37,065 bases of DNA from Cytophagaceae bacterium (GTDB lineage Bacteria > Bacteroidota > Bacteroidia > Cytophagales > Flexibacteraceae). Where the stretch lies: the NCBI GenBank assembly GCA_027485575.1, contig JAIXQU010000097.1:1-37065 (forward strand). Reading direction: 5' to 3'. The notes beneath the pieces were generated by a model. It saw only the letters and a list, made by a program, of their open reading frames with translations, ran no database searches and had not been told where the DNA came from. The position numbers and the translations under genes were made by a program. Below are positions 3,336 to 9,297 of this stretch, piece after piece. Position 1 is the stretch's first letter; the number at the start of each line of letters is the position of its first letter.

Positions 3336-5093
3336 TTACGGTGCCAGCACAATTTTCTTCACTTCGGTGATGTGGCCCTGCGGGTTGATGAGGTGCAAAA
3401 GGTAAAGACCATTGCCGCCCCAGGTGCTCATACTCAACACCTGCTGCTGCTGACTGATGAGCGTGGCCGGATACACCTCCTGCCCCAGAGAATTGCTGAT
3501 TCTGATTTTCCAGCCTTGCATCAATGCCAGATTGCCGGCATCGAGCGTGATGGCGGTATTGCCGGGATTAGGCCATACTTTTAAGGTATTGCCATAAGCC
3601 ACCGGATTGTACGACGTAATGCCGGTATGGATGAGCAAAGTATCGGTTACGGTGATGCTGGTTTGGCAGATGCCCTGGTTGTAAAGTTGGGTAATTTCTT
3701 GTGGGGTAAGGGCACGGTTCCAGATGGCGATGTCGTCGAGGGAGCCTTTGAAGTATCTTGGATAAAACATGTCAGCGCCTAAGTTAAACTGGTTAGTTTG
3801 GGTCCATGGATTCGTACTTATAGCCGCTATTGCTGTATCAACTAAAACACCATTGTAATAAAGTCTAAGTCGTGGACTTGGATTGGTTTGATAAGTTCCA
3901 ACAACATGATTCCAATTTTGAATATCTTGAAATGATATAGATTCCGCTAAATTTGTTGTTTGTTGATTGACATACCATCTGATAGCTTTTGTATTTGGCC
4001 AAGAGCCTAAGCCGGTATAAGCTGATCCATTTTGGTTTCTGCCGCCCACAAAAGAGCTACCTGGGTTGTTGAATAATGAATCATTATTTTTAAACCAACA
4101 GGAAAAAGTGAATTGTGTTTGACTCGAACTACCGAATCCTTGTTGGATCGTAGTTGGTAGCGAAATATGATTGTTTTGAAATGAATATGCACTATTAGTA
4201 TTCCCAAACCGATCAGCGGTAAGCGTAGCGCCGTTTACTGTGCCATGGTTGTTGTTGCCGCTTTCATCCAGCGCATTGCCACAAAATGGCCAGTAGCCAA
4301 CCAAACCTTGTGCTAAGCTGGCAGGAAAAGTAGGGCAGTTGGCGGTTGTGTTGGCGCCCTGGTACAAAGAGGTGATTTCCTGCTGAGTGAGGGCCCGGTT
4401 GTAGATGGCGATGTCGTCCATACCGCCTATGTATGGTTCTAAGTAATTTGTCCAATTTTGCCCTATCCTTAGATTGGAATTAGAGCAGGTGTCTGCTTGA
4501 GCATTAGGAGCTGCAATATTGGATTGAAGAATCGCATCAACAAAAATCTGTATTGAAGTTGAACTTGTAATACATGAAATCATATGGTAGGTCCCGTCCG
4601 AAAAATTCAAAGAATTTGCAGCGCCAACCCAGCCAAATCCTGGTAAACAATTACTGTTATATTTTGAAAAGTAACCTATACCCGATACTCCAGGCGAAAA
4701 GTAATTAAGGGTAGCATTATAATTTTCATTACTTGCATCATTAAAATTAGCCTTGTTAAACAAACACATCCTATTGTTAGAACTAGTTTTAAACCAAAGA
4801 TTAATTGTGCCATTAGGCAAATTCAGTGAGGGATGATGAATTATTTCAATGAAATCATCTATTCCATCAAAGCTATACGCCTTCCCAACATTTCCAAACC
4901 GATCCGAAGTAAGCGTAGCCCCGTTTACCGTCCCATTGTTGTTGTTCCCCGATTCATCATTGGCATTTCCATTAAAAGGCCACCAGCCAACGAGGCCATT
5001 GGCGGGTACATACGAGGGGAGAGTTTGGGCCGTTCCATTGCCAGCAAGGGCAAGCAGGGCGAGGACAGAGAGAAGAGTTTTTTTCATTTTCAT
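3336..5093 (-). CDS. T9SS-secreted protein with two LamG-like domains
   Basis: This encodes 585 residues from the ATG at 5091-5093 (a second ATG at 5087 fits equally well). The frame stays open upstream to 5216, but only these starts give a signal peptide (MKKTLLSVLALLALAGNGTAQ). Two concanavalin-A/LamG-type lectin domains follow, about residues 35-235 and 265-475. Each opens with a near-identical module (GLVGWWPFNGNANDESGNNN and GLVGYWPFCGNALDESGNNN) and ends with DDIAI(Y/W)NRALT.QEI. The last 80 or so residues are a T9SS sorting domain: VWPNPGNTAITLD, then a final KKIVLAP. It is probably carried across the outer membrane by T9SS and displayed or released, where it may bind glycans. No catalytic domain is visible. 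Confidence 0.9.
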   Translation of the reverse strand: MKMKKTLLSVLALLALAGNGTAQTLPSYVPANGLVGWWPFNGNANDESGNNNNGTVNGATLTSDRFGNVGKAYSFDGIDDFIEIIHHPSLNLPNGTINLWFKTSSNNRMCLFNKANFNDASNENYNATLNYFSPGVSGIGYFSKYNSNCLPGFGWVGAANSLNFSDGTYHMISCITSSTSIQIFVDAILQSNIAAPNAQADTCSNSNLRIGQNWTNYLEPYIGGMDDIAIYNRALTQQEITSLYQGANTTANCPTFPASLAQGLVGYWPFCGNALDESGNNNHGTVNGATLTADRFGNTNSAYSFQNNHISLPTTIQQGFGSSSQTQFTFSCWFKNNDSLFNNPGSSFVGGRNQNGSAYTGLGSWPNTKAIRWYVNQQTTNLAESISFQDIQNWNHVVGTYQTNPSPRLRLYYNGVLVDTAIAAISTNPWTQTNQFNLGADMFYPRYFKGSLDDIAIWNRALTPQEITQLYNQGICQTSITVTDTLLIHTGITSYNPVAYGNTLKVWPNPGNTAITLDAGNLALMQGWKIRISNSLGQEVYPATLISQQQQVLSMSTWGGNGLYLLHLINPQGHITEVKKIVLAP

Positions 5094-5510
5094 TTTTTTA
5101 GGTTTTCCCTGCACTGTCCCGATGCAGAGGGTTGTAAAAAAAATCAGCGTGGGACAGTTGCCATACTTGTAAGCGTGGGAGTCGAAGCCCAGTGAACAAA
5201 GTAAAGCAACGCCCACGCTTTAACGCGGGCGTTATGCTTGTACCTCCCTGTTCAATAGAATTTTCGACTTTTCGCTTACAGGATTCTACAGCAAACGCTG
5301 ATTATATTATGTTAGCCATCAAGGCTGTATCATATTCTATATCATTCAATTTTAATTGTCTGGTGCAAACATAATCGTAAAAATATTATGTTGGTTAAAT
5401 TCATAAATGAAATGCTATGTATCGGCATGGAAAAACTGGTCATTGTCGTTGCCCGGTTGGTAAGCGGTTGCAAAAAATTAGTTTTCTGTCTTGGCCCTGT
5501 GGGCAGCTGC
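5094..5510. other. Gene-free stretch with clustered short inverted repeats
   Basis: I see no credible gene here. Close to the LamG gene start are several short inverted repeats: CTGCA/TGCAG (5109-5127), CTGTCCC/GGGACAG (5114-5120 with 5151-5157), AAGCGTGGG/CCCACGCTT (5171-5179 with 5212-5220), and AACGCCC/GGGCGTT (5208-5233). They overlap, so only some can form at once. They could structure the LamG gene's 5' leader or be remains of small repeats. Bases 5240-5510 are AT-rich and unremarkable apart from leading into the repeat at 5511. Confidence 0.5.
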
Positions 5511-5843
5511 TTATCGGGCGTGGCTCCAGCCACGTTCGCACTATTAATAAGCCTCTGGCTTACATGACCAATGTTTTGTTAATAAAAAACGGGATTCAAT
5601 TTGAGGATTATGAGAAAGATGTTTGATTTGGCCGGAGGCCTTACAATATCCGGAACGTGGCGGAGCCACGCTCCATTGGCGGCGGCTGTTTATCGGGCGT
5701 GGCTCCAGCCACGTTCGCACTATTCATAAGCCTCTGGCTTACATAACCAACTTATTGCCAGAAAAAAACGGGATCAAGAAAGATGTTTGATTTGGCCGGA
5801 GGCCTTACAATATCCGGAACGTGGCGGAGCCACGCTCCATTGG
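5511..5843. repeat. Tandem pair of nested-hairpin (MITE-like) elements
   Basis: Copy 1 is 5511-5679 and copy 2 is 5690-5843. They are nearly identical except for a short internal deletion in copy 2. Each copy is bounded by inverted ends: GCGTGGCTCCAGCCACGTTC on the left (5518-5537; 5697-5716) and GAACGTGGCGGAGCCACGC on the right (5653-5671; 5817-5835). Each end is itself a hairpin. Inside are two more small hairpins, AGCCTCTGGCT and GGCCGGAGGCC, whose surroundings also pair imperfectly with each other. There is no open frame of note, so this resembles a non-autonomous, REP/MITE-type element. Confidence 0.85.
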
Positions 5844-5857
5844 GGAGATGTAAAAAA

Positions 5858-5890
5858 AAACCTATAAGGTCTCGAAGACCTTATAGGTTT
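5858..5890 (-). terminator. Long palindrome after the acnA-tail relic
   Basis: AAACCTATAAGGTCT (5858-5872) and AGACCTTATAGGTTT (5876-5890) form a perfect 15-bp stem with a 3-base loop. On the minus strand it follows the stop codon of the aconitase-tail relic (5911) by 20 bases and is followed by a run of T (complement of 5852-5860), as expected for an intrinsic terminator. It shares its arms with the palindrome at 3289-3322. Confidence 0.75.
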
Positions 5891-5910: not shown

Positions 5911-6014
5911 TTACCCCTTCAAAAACTGCCGGGTCACATACTGCATAATGCCGCCGTGTCGGTAGTATTCGATTTCCACTTGGGAGTCAAGTCTGGAAAA
6001 GGCTTTGAAATTGC
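5911..6014 (-). pseudogene. Relic: duplicated 3' end of an aconitase gene
   Basis: The minus strand encodes FKAFSRLDSQVEIEYYRHGG, then IMQYVTRQFLKG and a stop at 5911-5913. This matches the last 32 residues of the intact acnA (end 6583) with a single amino-acid change (Ile to Phe). Over 33 codons I count ten base differences, nine of them silent, so this copy diverged while it was still selected as coding sequence. Homology stops near 6014, about 30 bases before the stop of the ORF6N gene. The fragment has its own terminator palindrome at 5858-5890. It looks like an acnA 3' end from a related lineage, left after insertion or recombination. Confidence 0.9.
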
Positions 6015-6041: not shown

Positions 6042-6533
6042 TTATACTTTCCCCACCTTAAACCCAATCTCTCTTCTGGGTTCATTCTTTTCGTGAAACA
6101 ATTGCTTTATCGCATCAAAAACCACTGCAAATTGGTGGTCATATTTAGATTCAAGCTTTTCGATTTTTTCGGCCAGTTCTTTGTGGGTGGCAAGGTAATC
6201 CCTGATTTGAACAAAGGCTCGAACCACAAAAATGCTTGCTTTGATGGCTACTTCAGAATTGAGGACACTTGCCAGCATTACTGCGCCATGTTCGGTGAAA
6301 GCATAAGGTCGGTATTTTCTGAGCAAACCAAAGGTCGCATTTTGCGACCTTAAGATTTTCCATTCCTCTTCAGAAAGTTGAAACATGAAATCTTCTGGAA
6401 ATCTGGATAGATTTCGTTTTACCTGTTCATTCAATCTTTTGGTTTCAACACCATATATATCAGCTAGCTGCGAATCTAAAAGAACCCGTTTACCTCGAAT
6501 TAAATGTATGCTATTTACAATTTGAAATTCCAT
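6042..6533 (-). CDS. ORF6N-domain DNA-binding protein
   Basis: This encodes 163 residues from the ATG at 6531-6533; the frame extends to a TTG at 6557, but that lies inside a palindrome. The first 110 or so residues match the phage-type ORF6N domain: IRGKRVLLDSQLADIYGVET, LNEQVKRNLSRFPEDFMF, LRSQNAT, YAFTEHGAVMLASVLNS. The tail is a coiled coil (AEKIEKLESKYDHQFAVVF) ending in a basic REIGFKVGKV. ORF6N domains are known from phage and mobile-element proteins and are thought to bind DNA. The gene sits between the intact acnA 3' end (49 bases upstream) and the duplicated acnA tail, which suggests arrival on an inserted segment. Related palindromes lie upstream of it and inside it. Confidence 0.9.
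   Translation of the reverse strand: MEFQIVNSIHLIRGKRVLLDSQLADIYGVETKRLNEQVKRNLSRFPEDFMFQLSEEEWKILRSQNATFGLLRKYRPYAFTEHGAVMLASVLNSEVAIKASIFVVRAFVQIRDYLATHKELAEKIEKLESKYDHQFAVVFDAIKQLFHEKNEPRREIGFKVGKV
6331..6351. repeat. Palindrome inside the ORF6N gene
   Basis: AAGGTCGCA (6331-6339) and TGCGACCTT (6343-6351) form a perfect 9-bp stem with loop TTT, entirely inside the coding region at the conserved LRSQNAT codons. Its GTCGCA...TGCGAC core is the same as that of the palindrome upstream of the gene (6546-6570). It may be a binding site read by the protein itself, or a consequence of the codons for this motif. Confidence 0.7.
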
Positions 6534-6545
6534 ATTCAAAAAAAC

Positions 6546-6570
6546 TTGAAGTCGCAAATTGCGACTTCAA
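6546..6570 (-). promoter_or_regulatory. 25-nt perfect palindrome between acnA and the ORF6N gene
   Basis: TTGAAGTCGCAA (6546-6557) and TTGCGACTTCAA (6559-6570) form a perfect 12-bp inverted repeat around one central base. On the minus strand it lies 12 bases after the acnA stop and is followed by a run of seven T, so it can serve as the acnA intrinsic terminator. It also ends 13 bases before the ORF6N start and could be an operator. It shares its GTCGCA core with the palindrome inside that gene. Confidence 0.7.
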
Positions 6571-6582
6571 ACTAATTTTTCA

Positions 6583-9297
6583 TTACCCCTTCAAAAACTG
6601 CCGTGTCACATACTGCATAATGCCGCCGTGTCGGTAGTATTCAATCTCAACTTGCGAATCCAATCGGGAAATGGCTTTGAACTCAAAAGTGGAACCATCT
6701 TCCCGAACTGCTTTCACGGTCAGCTCTTTGCCTGGAAAATTGTCGCTGCCAAGTCCAATGATGCTGAATGATTCTCTACCCGTTAGACCAAGGCTTTCGG
6801 TATTTTGTCCGTCTTTAAATTGCAATGGAACTACGCCCATTCCTACCAGATTGCTTCTGTGGATACGCTCATAACTTTCGGCAATCACAACCCGGATTCC
6901 TAAAAGGTAGGTTCCTTTGGCTGCCCAGTCCCGGCTTGAACCGGATCCGTATTCTTTACCAGCCAAGACCATTAAAGGCGTGTTTGTTCCTTTGTATTGA
7001 ACAGCAGCATCATATACGGTAGTTTCCTCGTTGGTTGGGAAATAGGTTGTGAATCCACCTTCTTTCGTAGCCACTTTATTTTTGATTCGTACGTTGGCAA
7101 AAGTTCCACGAACCATCACTTCATCGTGTCCTCTCCGGCTTCCATAAGAGTTGAAATCTTCTTTTGCAACACCTCTGCCAATCAGGTATTTACCTGCTGG
7201 AGTTCCTTCTTTAAAAGAACCGGCTGGTGAGATATGGTCGGTGGTAACAGAATCGCCCAAACTCAACAATACCCTGGCATTGTGGATATCCTGAATCTGG
7301 CCTGGCTCTACAGACATGTTTTCAAAAAACGGCGCTTCTTTAATATATGTAGATTCTGCATCCCATTTGTACACCTGTCCGGTTGCGGATTGCAATTCCT
7401 GCCACTGTGCGTCGCCATCAAAAATGGTATCGTAGCTCTTGGCAAATTCCGTTGTGGAAAGCGAAGAATGAATGGTGCTGTTGATTTCTTCTGTAGTTGG
7501 CCAAATGTCTTTTAACAAAACAGCGTTTCCAGATTTGTCAAAACCCAAAGGATCGTTTTCAAAATCGAAGTCAACTTTTCCAGCCAAAGCATAGGCAACA
7601 ACCAACATGGGTGACATCAAAAAGTTCATTTTGATTTGAGGGTGAACCCTTGCCTCGAAATTACGGTTACCAGAAAGGGCAGAAGCCACAACCAGGTCAT
7701 GAGATTCAACCGCTTTGGCGATATGGTCAGGTAAAGGACCTGAGTTTCCGATACAACTTGTGCAGCCATAGCCTACCACGTTGAATTTCAGCTTCTCCAT
7801 GTAAGGCAACAAGCCGGATTTGGAAAGATATTCGGTAACTACTTTGGAACCTGGAGCCAGCGAAGGCTTTACCCAAGGTTTGATGTCCAGACCTTTTTCA
7901 ACTGCTTTTTTGGCTATCAATCCTGCTCCGATCATTACAGATGGATTGGAGGTATTGGTACAGGAAGTGATGGCTGCGAGAACCACATTTCCATCGTACA
8001 ACATGTAATCCTCTTTGCCGTCAAAAACATAAGCGCCTTTCATAGAACCTTCTTCGATGGTGGCGGTTTCTGTTTTTGCTCTACTTGCGGCAGGTACATA
8101 TTTTCTTCCAAAATCCTGAATCAAACCTTCAAATTTGGATTTGAATTCGGATACAACAATCTTATCCTGAGGTCTTTTTGGGCCCGAAACGGTTGGAACA
8201 ACGGTTGATAAATCCAGTTCCACAACGGATGAATATTCAATTGGTTCGCTGTGATCCAACCAAAGCATATTGGCTTTGCAATAGGCCTCCACAGTTTTAA
8301 CCAACGCTTCAGGCCGGTTTGATTTTCTTAAATAATCCAATGTCTGGTCATCAATCGGGAAGAAAGAAACAGTAGAACCAAACTCAGGTGACATATTGGA
8401 AATGGTGGCTCTGTCCGGAACAGTAAGCGTGGCAAGTCCTTCGCCAAAAACTTCTACGAATTTGCCAACCACACCATGTTTTCTTAAGATTTGGGTAATG
8501 GTCAAAACCATATCAGTTGCCGTTGTTCCCAACGGAAGTTTTCCAGTCAGTTTTAAACCAACTACTTCCGGCATGATGAAAAACAAAGGCTGACCCAAAA
8601 GGGCTGCTTCTGCTTCAATTCCACCCACACCCCAGGCCACAACACCGATTCCGTTTACCATTGGCGTGTGAGAATCAGTCCCCACCAAAGTATCAGGAAA
8701 AGCGATTCCATTTCTAACCTGAACGGCTTTGGCCAGATATTCAAGGTTTACCTGGTGGCAAATGCCCATTCCCGGAGGCACCACAGAAAAGTTATCAAAC
8801 GATTTCTGCGCCCATTTCAGGAACTGATATCGTTCTCCATTTCGCTCATATTCAACTTCTACATTTTTTTCTAATGAATCAGCTGTGCCGAAATAATCCA
8901 CCATAACAGAATGGTCAATCACCAAATCAACAGGAATCAATGGATTTACCTTATTTGGGTCCATTCCTTTTCTGGCCATTTCACCTCTGATTGAGGCAAT
9001 GTCAACCACGGCCGGAACACCTGTAAAATCCTGCATCAATACCCTGGCTGGCATAAAAGGAATTTCTTTGTCCGCTGGTTTTGGCGCCCAACCCAAAACG
9101 GTTTCTACATTTTCCTGCGTTATCGCAAAACCATCATAGTTTCTCAGTGCATTTTCAACCAGAATCCGGATAGAATAAGGAAGTTTGGAAATGTTTTTTC
9201 CTTGCTTTTGAAGTTCTGCAAGGCTATAATACTTTACTTTTCCATTTGGTGTATCGAGTTCACGGACAATGCCGTAGATGTCTTGTTTTTCTGACAT
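6583..9297 (-). CDS. acnA: Aconitate hydratase A
   Basis: This 904-residue enzyme interconverts citrate and isocitrate in the TCA cycle in the cytoplasm and is of normal length for the AcnA/IRP1 type. The three [4Fe-4S] ligands are visible: C446 in ITSCTNTSN, and C512 and C515 in GYGCTSCIGNSG. Also present are GTDSHTPMVNG (around 206-216), the swivelling C-terminal domain with SLGDSVTTDHISPAG, and the substrate-binding YGSGSSRDWAAKG. The ATG at 9297 gives the standard N-terminus. It is transcribed alone: the rplY terminator lies upstream and a 25-nt palindrome lies just after its stop. The 3' end has been duplicated (relic at 5911-6014), but the gene itself is intact. Confidence 0.97.
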   Translation of the reverse strand: MSEKQDIYGIVRELDTPNGKVKYYSLAELQKQGKNISKLPYSIRILVENALRNYDGFAITQENVETVLGWAPKPADKEIPFMPARVLMQDFTGVPAVVDIASIRGEMARKGMDPNKVNPLIPVDLVIDHSVMVDYFGTADSLEKNVEVEYERNGERYQFLKWAQKSFDNFSVVPPGMGICHQVNLEYLAKAVQVRNGIAFPDTLVGTDSHTPMVNGIGVVAWGVGGIEAEAALLGQPLFFIMPEVVGLKLTGKLPLGTTATDMVLTITQILRKHGVVGKFVEVFGEGLATLTVPDRATISNMSPEFGSTVSFFPIDDQTLDYLRKSNRPEALVKTVEAYCKANMLWLDHSEPIEYSSVVELDLSTVVPTVSGPKRPQDKIVVSEFKSKFEGLIQDFGRKYVPAASRAKTETATIEEGSMKGAYVFDGKEDYMLYDGNVVLAAITSCTNTSNPSVMIGAGLIAKKAVEKGLDIKPWVKPSLAPGSKVVTEYLSKSGLLPYMEKLKFNVVGYGCTSCIGNSGPLPDHIAKAVESHDLVVASALSGNRNFEARVHPQIKMNFLMSPMLVVAYALAGKVDFDFENDPLGFDKSGNAVLLKDIWPTTEEINSTIHSSLSTTEFAKSYDTIFDGDAQWQELQSATGQVYKWDAESTYIKEAPFFENMSVEPGQIQDIHNARVLLSLGDSVTTDHISPAGSFKEGTPAGKYLIGRGVAKEDFNSYGSRRGHDEVMVRGTFANVRIKNKVATKEGGFTTYFPTNEETTVYDAAVQYKGTNTPLMVLAGKEYGSGSSRDWAAKGTYLLGIRVVIAESYERIHRSNLVGMGVVPLQFKDGQNTESLGLTGRESFSIIGLGSDNFPGKELTVKAVREDGSTFEFKAISRLDSQVEIEYYRHGGIMQYVTRQFLKG

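Follow-up and report, generated by a model that had tools for sequence, protein, structure and literature searches.

The window analysed here, a stretch of 37,065 nucleotides, carries on its minus strand a single ORF6N-domain gene (ATG at 6533, stop codon at 6042-6044) downstream of acnA. The encoded protein matches Pfam PF10543 (E=6.6e-34, 116.5 bits against a curated cut-off of 27.8) and the PHROG 4792 anti-repressor (E=1.3e-21), and the gene is the only ORF6N match in the whole genome. A reading of the sequence alone had picked out two related palindromes with a GTCGCA core at this gene, and both are indeed perfect: one, with two 12-nt arms and a 1-nt centre, is placed between the acnA stop (6583) and the ORF6N start codon, and the other, with 9-bp arms and a 3-nt loop, spans the LRSQNAT codons (residues 61-67). 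The features discussed below are the following.

6042-6533, minus strand: ORF6N-domain gene, 163 aa, predicted winged-helix-like DNA-binding protein
6331-6351, no strand: in-gene palindrome AAGGTCGCA-TTT-TGCGACCTT, proposed self-binding site in the LRSQNAT codons
6546-6570, no strand: upstream palindrome TTGAAGTCGCAAATTGCGACTTCAA, proposed second self-site and possible acnA terminator
6414-6443, minus strand: codons of the predicted recognition helix, residues 31-40
6438-6440 (K32), 6435-6437 (R33) and 6426-6428 (E36), minus strand: codons of the residues that together predict the half-site GTCGCA
6583-9297, minus strand: acnA (aconitase), upstream neighbour on the same strand, 904-aa ORF named by sequence
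6583-6681, minus strand: copy A of the acnA 3' end, joined to acnA, 90% identical to 5911-6009
5911-6009, minus strand: copy B of the acnA 3' end, a repeat of copy A displaced beyond ORF6N
5858-5890, no strand: terminator-like palindrome after copy B, 15-nt arms

GTCGCA forms both halves of the internal site and both halves of the upstream site, as K32, R33 and E36 predict. The pattern GTCGCAN{0,20}TGCGAC occurs twice in the window and in none of 100 dinucleotide shuffles. A genome search, which the sequence-only reading had proposed, bears it out: the only GTCGCAN{0,8}TGCGAC sites in the 3,906,659-base assembly are these two, in and just before the ORF6N gene, and the reversed control pattern is absent. 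The shorter pattern TCGCANNNTGCGA has three genome sites, namely both window palindromes and C16:20657, against one for its control pattern.

The acnA locus and possible mobility

The ORF6N gene and its upstream palindrome are flanked by the two copies of the acnA 3' end, which are 99 nt long and 90% identical. The palindrome at 5858-5890 is probably the original acnA terminator; in three relatives that lack an ORF6N match at acnA, a terminator-like stem follows right after the acnA stop (judged by eye). The acnA repeat might have arisen as a long target-site duplication that later decayed. The two tails differ in nine codons, one of them non-synonymously, which suggests that both copies diverged while functional; the acnA genes of relatives are too diverged to assign the native copy. 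Direct repeats (E<=1e-5, within 500 bp) occur at 14 of 97 other ORF6N sites, the window excluded, against 6 of 408 control positions. Codon figures at other flanking repeats are 8/17 (L021), 5/15 (L105), 3/13 (L093) and 1/4 (L078), and the repeats at L069 and L110 look, by eye, more like decay. Downstream of the acnA tail copy the window also holds direct repeats nested within one another (5502-5595, 5681-5774, 5613-5679 and 5777-5843), whose inverted parts are of the GTGGCTCCAGCCAC type.

Two further loci are noted for their arrangement. A same-genus genome (L150, G002:C128) has, in order, acnA, a 206-aa gene, a partial acnA tail, a broken ORF6N gene with palindrome, and a third acnA tail (4176-4283; 751-936); the 206-aa product (4316-4936, minus strand) resembles by eye a REP-associated tyrosine transposase with a PNHFHLL motif. 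At L093 (G004:C193) the ORF6N protein is long, and its C-terminal, phospholipase-D-like part (by eye) is repeated in the upstream gene at 96% identity.

In one genus (g66) a single site between two convergent genes was found empty in 13 stretches and filled in 28; these were picked to show both states, and the filled ones take in three duplicate fetches and some remnants. The filled loci among those listed carry, by eye, differing palindromes and helices between near-constant protein ends, some with downstream arrays. These arrays (L184-L193, L228-L244) hold up to about seven palindromes by eye, all downstream of ORF6N at the one orthologous site; many of the palindromes are imperfect, and some have mixed halves or ORF6N-like flanking code.

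The internal palindrome in the ORF6N and KilA-N families

Relatives were gathered mainly through protein similarity, with few loci fetched by palindrome pattern. Genome records supplied 564 loci, of which the best 80 were taken; to these were added loci from 98 related genomes searched by Pfam profile, 30 loci from an alignment-profile search of 296 genomes of the window's phylum, one genus sampled using the DNA of a whole locus, and viral contigs. Within a named phage collection, ORF6N was matched in 14 records and KilA-N in 17; phage P1 is absent among the latter. The Pfam family Rha (PF09669) matched in 11 of 247 genomes, two of them above the cut-off, and 10 of the 11 places overlap ORF6N places. 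Before counting we set aside sixteen matches that lacked a recognisable helix motif, roughly half of which were fragments. The evaluable unique ORF6N genes number 227; they come from bacteria and from phages, and the window's gene is among them.

When the LRSQ-coding DNA is compared over these homologues, as the sequence-only reading had advised, 221 of the 227 genes have a palindrome in the same loop (at least 9 of 12 arm pairs and at least 5 of 7 inner pairs, with the centre set by complementarity alone), against 29.5 expected from synonymous recoding, and six lack it. The arms are perfect, 12 of 12, in 100 genes, where recoding predicts 0.04. Removal of the pattern-fetched loci leaves 220 of 226, still with 100 perfect. 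A first set of 111 genes, which includes pattern-fetched loci and at least one chance regex match, had given the same picture in the codon test: at least 10 of 12 arm pairs round a 3-nt loop in 101 genes against 1.3 expected, and 12 of 12 in 52 against 0.01. Loci of the phylum that were new by protein profile have the palindrome, at 10 of 12 pairs or better, in 26 cases out of 26. Ordinary codon use, which had been named as something that might fully explain the internal site, is ruled out by these recoding figures.

The cores differ from gene to gene (GTCGCA, GTCACA, GTTCCA, GTGCCA, ATCRCA), with both arms varying in step, and 8 of 106 genes have two palindromes within the loop. The centre of the palindrome falls in one codon phase in 192 genes (mostly LRSQxAT-like) and in another in 29 (mostly VVANCDH-like); none of the 221 uses the third phase. 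Since the palindrome is found in two reading frames, it is the DNA that is conserved and not the peptide. Across the genes compared, the internal palindrome is a family trait, kept as DNA rather than as peptide.

KilA-N (PF04383) was fetched as a comparison family and proved positive. Its 87 unique domains come from 30 loci and the best 80 of 118 viral loci, and at least four look like chance regex matches. An internal palindrome with at least 10 of 12 pairs is present in 77 of the 87 (8.9 expected) and is perfect in 39 (0.1 expected); all 77 are centred at one constant distance from a conserved Trp codon. The helix residues at -1, -5, -2 and -6 from this Trp track half-site positions -5 to -8, with many of the sequences closely related. 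The loci L320-L429 are KilA-N genes of this kind, with their own internal palindrome and arms that track recognition-helix residues.

Over 98 genomes, the window's own included, GGTCRCANNNTGYGACC occurs at 15 places, 11 inside an ORF6N match, two within 60 bp of one and two elsewhere; all 15 belong to genomes with ORF6N, and the pattern is absent from the 78 genomes without an ORF6N match. Next to the two solitary palindromes (G018:C1:2666418 and G092:C77:44341; L114, L121) a weak search turned up no convincing trace of an ORF6N gene. Perfect CA-NNN-TG palindromes with arms of at least 8 lie inside the gene in 84 of 135 cases, up to 300 bp upstream in 10, up to 300 bp downstream in three, at 300-1500 bp in two and near another ORF6N copy in four; farther than 1.5 kb from the gene, 345 kb of flanking sequence contains none. 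The proposal that the palindrome is a mobile one tied to the gene holds to the extent that palindromes accumulate beside some ORF6N genes, but they are undispersed in the genomes searched, where copies stay at ORF6N genes, and a dispersed mobile palindrome is ruled out for those genomes.

The upstream copy fares differently from the internal one. Scanning for one of four cores within 200 bp, with the array genus left out, we found an upstream site in only 18 of 185 genes, so that its absence from orthologues, which had been put forward as evidence against the proposal, is what is mostly seen; the upstream copy is thus optional and the internal one near-constant. Where upstream sites exist, 14 of 22 fit the specificity of the protein, where chance would give 8.6 (p=0.004 in a permutation test over loci that ignores relatedness), and eight mismatch the protein's class; with the pattern-fetched loci kept in, the match is 15 of 23 against 8.7 (p=0.0015). 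Downstream palindromes do not track specificity, with 15 of 25 matching in the array genus against 12.9 expected and 0 of 4 elsewhere.

Covariation of the palindrome with the predicted recognition helix

The AF2 model of the window protein is confident over the domain (mean pLDDT 85.5) and has a helix at residues 31-40, which are encoded about 100 bases away from the palindrome centre. Foldseek with the ORF6N model gave no match at E<=0.001, the best VIA Z is 6.9, and a sequence search of solved structures gave nothing convincing; the best solved-structure matches, all weak (Z below 7), include the DNA-binding folds of Ski/Dachshund, RacA, Par and Mbp1, along with an unrelated viral envelope protein.

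Residue 36 of this helix goes with the half-site in the 221 genes (E36 with CGCA: 145 of 156 half-sites, Q36 with CACA: 211 of 218, K36 with TCCA: 19 of 22, R36 with GCCA: 26 of 40), the R36 class being loose. Both halves obey this code in 194 genes, one half in 15 and neither in 10, while two genes have another residue. Without pattern-fetched loci, both halves obey in 108 of 124 cellular genes and in 35 of 36 from the one genus, whose exception is L241 (the same locus as L202); viral loci obey in 5 of 5 cases fetched before the rule was seen and in 45 of 55 fetched after. The pairings have a familiar chemistry: glutamine with adenine, lysine or arginine with guanine, and glutamate opposite cytosine.

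Ranking all alignment columns by mutual information with the core pair, in 158 genes with symmetric cores (pattern-fetched loci included), puts residue 36 first (1.25 of 1.347 bits) and residue 33 next. Residue 36 is likewise the top column for half-site position -3 (1.27 of 1.43 bits), and residue 32 is the top column outside the palindrome for position -6 (0.66 of 0.91 bits). K32 genes have G at position -6 of both halves without exception (120 of 120); R32 genes are divided among A/A (38), mixed (22) and G/G (13). The symmetric cases in the second reading frame follow the same code (E with CGCA in 14 of 14, Q with CACA in 10 of 10), and because it holds there with a different peptide, coevolution within the protein between residue 36 and the loop is ruled out.

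Relatedness was controlled with 199 genes having symmetric cores of the four main classes, the helix and palindrome codons masked and disjoint closest pairs drawn. At 70% identity or above, residue 36 differs in all 28 pairs whose cores differ, 27 of which obey the code on both sides, and in none of 34 pairs with the same core; at 50% or above it differs in 73 of 75 and 5 of 87, respectively. On the masked tree, Fitch parsimony puts the minimum number of changes at 51 for the core, 55 for the residue and 56 for the two jointly, so that core and residue mostly switch together. Within this set of sequences the covariation of core and helix is near-deterministic and is not explained by relatedness.

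Proposed self-recognition, its alternatives and known systems

From these comparisons we conclude that the ORF6N protein would bind its own gene. The earlier suggestion of self-recognition is strongly supported, in that the palindrome core covaries with recognition-helix residues in bacteria and phages alike, and since protein and site change together, each gene seems to hold its own switch. We suggest that ORF6N contacts a palindrome of the form [G/A]T NN CA-NNN-TG NN A[C/T] through its predicted winged-helix domain, probably as a dimer, with helix residues 36, 33 and 32 setting base pairs -3, -4 and -6 of the half-site. The site would be carried in the protein's own coding sequence, here with another copy just before the start codon. 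Bound protein may then occupy the gene, as a roadblock or by a loop joining the sites 217 bp apart, and such occupancy may lower the gene's own expression; autoregulation is the likeliest consequence of the predicted self-binding. We consider self-recognition through an in-gene site, with autoregulation as its presumed outcome, to be probable. An in-gene operator would go wherever its gene goes, and the gene comes to lie behind a wide variety of host genes. Of 126 upstream neighbours, 92 share the strand of the ORF6N gene, the median distance being about 100 bases, and the neighbours are so diverse that an operator belonging to a host promoter would be left behind when the gene moves.

The protein could instead recognise its own gene for spread or exchange rather than expression, the palindrome being the recombination or capture site of a mobile single gene with a swappable DNA-binding segment. 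The flanking direct repeats, the arrays that adjoin some ORF6N genes, and the variable helix and palindrome between near-constant protein ends at the orthologous site of one genus (by eye) would all fit, as would array palindromes with mixed halves and the appearance, by eye, of L241 and L244 as truncated between in-gene and array palindromes. However, the protein matches no recombinase or nuclease family (Pfam, PHROG), the genomes searched show no dispersal of the palindromes, and deletions between repeats require no dedicated enzyme; we regard this account as unlikely. Less credible by far is that the site works like an origin or a centromere to which the gene's product binds, as in replication initiators with an in-gene origin: the in-gene self-site recalls phage lambda O and pT181 RepC, and there is the weak fold similarity to the DNA-binding domains of RacA and plasmid Par, but the window copy is a lone chromosomal gene amid unrelated genes, neighbours across loci are diverse, and no replication family is matched.

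Two other explanations dispense with binding by the protein. Were the palindromes to act as RNA, the internal one would be an mRNA hairpin and the upstream one a terminator. Both fold well (upstream -16.7 kcal/mol against a shuffle mean of -5.8, z -5.5; internal -12.9 kcal/mol, z -6.7), and a U-run follows the upstream one, where the minus strand continues with GTTTTTTT. Yet mismatches of the G-U type show no excess (35, against 50 of the A-C type), which rules out selection for an mRNA hairpin, and the covariation with helix residues is left unexplained. As a whole we find the RNA account very improbable, slightly less so than an origin; the upstream palindrome, on its folding energy, could still double as a terminator of acnA transcripts. 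That ordinary codon use or mutational correction produced the internal palindrome has a negligible chance of being right. Imperfect palindromes are known to be corrected through templated mutation, but recoding does not approach the number of perfect arms, and neither process accounts for the helix covariation or the two reading frames.

Returning to self-recognition, we tentatively extend it to a class of self-addressed genes, ORF6N and KilA-N, in which the DNA that encodes the binding domain would also be the domain's target. The coding-plus-target cassette could be exchangeable, with array copies as reserve or relic, and bacteria and phages would then harbour mobile genes that each control themselves independently of the others; we hold this to be possible rather than probable. 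We know of no described equivalent of such a class. The proteins of both families are common among bacteria and phages and have for the most part gone unexplained. If they are self-addressed, specificity could be read straight from the gene; if each gene holds its own target, it becomes predictable by sequence and many genes gain a testable function, and a protein-DNA recognition code would be measurable in natural variation. Among the papers listed, in the parts available (PMC5587575 and PMC12737573 included; subscription journals and preprints lay outside this scope), none was found to describe an in-gene palindrome.

The window protein also matches the PADLOC profile PDC-S05 (E=2.1e-52), so that it shares a profile with a candidate anti-phage gene. 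PDCs were identified by guilt-by-embedding, and most of them still await validation (PMC12988326). The neighbours of ORF6N genes are diverse. The 98 upstream neighbours scanned, of 126, span 138 Pfam families, the commonest among those listed being N6_Mtase and HsdM_N with five members; the 93 downstream neighbours scanned, of 115, on which PADLOC was also run, span 124 families, the commonest among those listed having four members and the type I specificity domain two. With no family common across loci beyond hsdM in 5 of 98, a defence-island gene is disfavoured, and the automatic anti-phage label on the family contrasts with neighbours most of which share no common family.

Several known systems resemble parts of this arrangement. 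The origin iterons of the phage lambda O protein lie inside gene O, and the origin of the pT181 family lies inside repC; as with ORF6N, specific sites are found in the protein's own coding sequence and specificity covaries with the site. ORF6N differs in being a single-gene, predicted winged-helix protein with a palindrome and with no replicon or nicking function seen, and in having its site in the codons of the DNA-binding domain itself, in records titled with many phyla (among the best 80 of 564 loci). Autoregulated transcription factors and phage repressors are alike in the proposed self-binding and in upstream sites that match specificity above chance, but ORF6N genes have their near-universal site within the coding sequence, with an upstream site only as an optional addition. 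RAYT genes are flanked by palindromes (REP, BIME) that their product binds, and some ORF6N genes similarly have arrays nearby; unlike RAYTs, the ORF6N protein has no Pfam match to a Y1 transposase, and its palindromes lie inside the gene and are undispersed (two genome sites; 13 of 15 at ORF6N in 98 genomes). The Rickettsia palindromic elements also lie within coding sequences in more than one frame; they occur in many genes, whereas in the genomes searched the ORF6N palindromes keep to ORF6N loci, and they follow the helix of the encoded protein.
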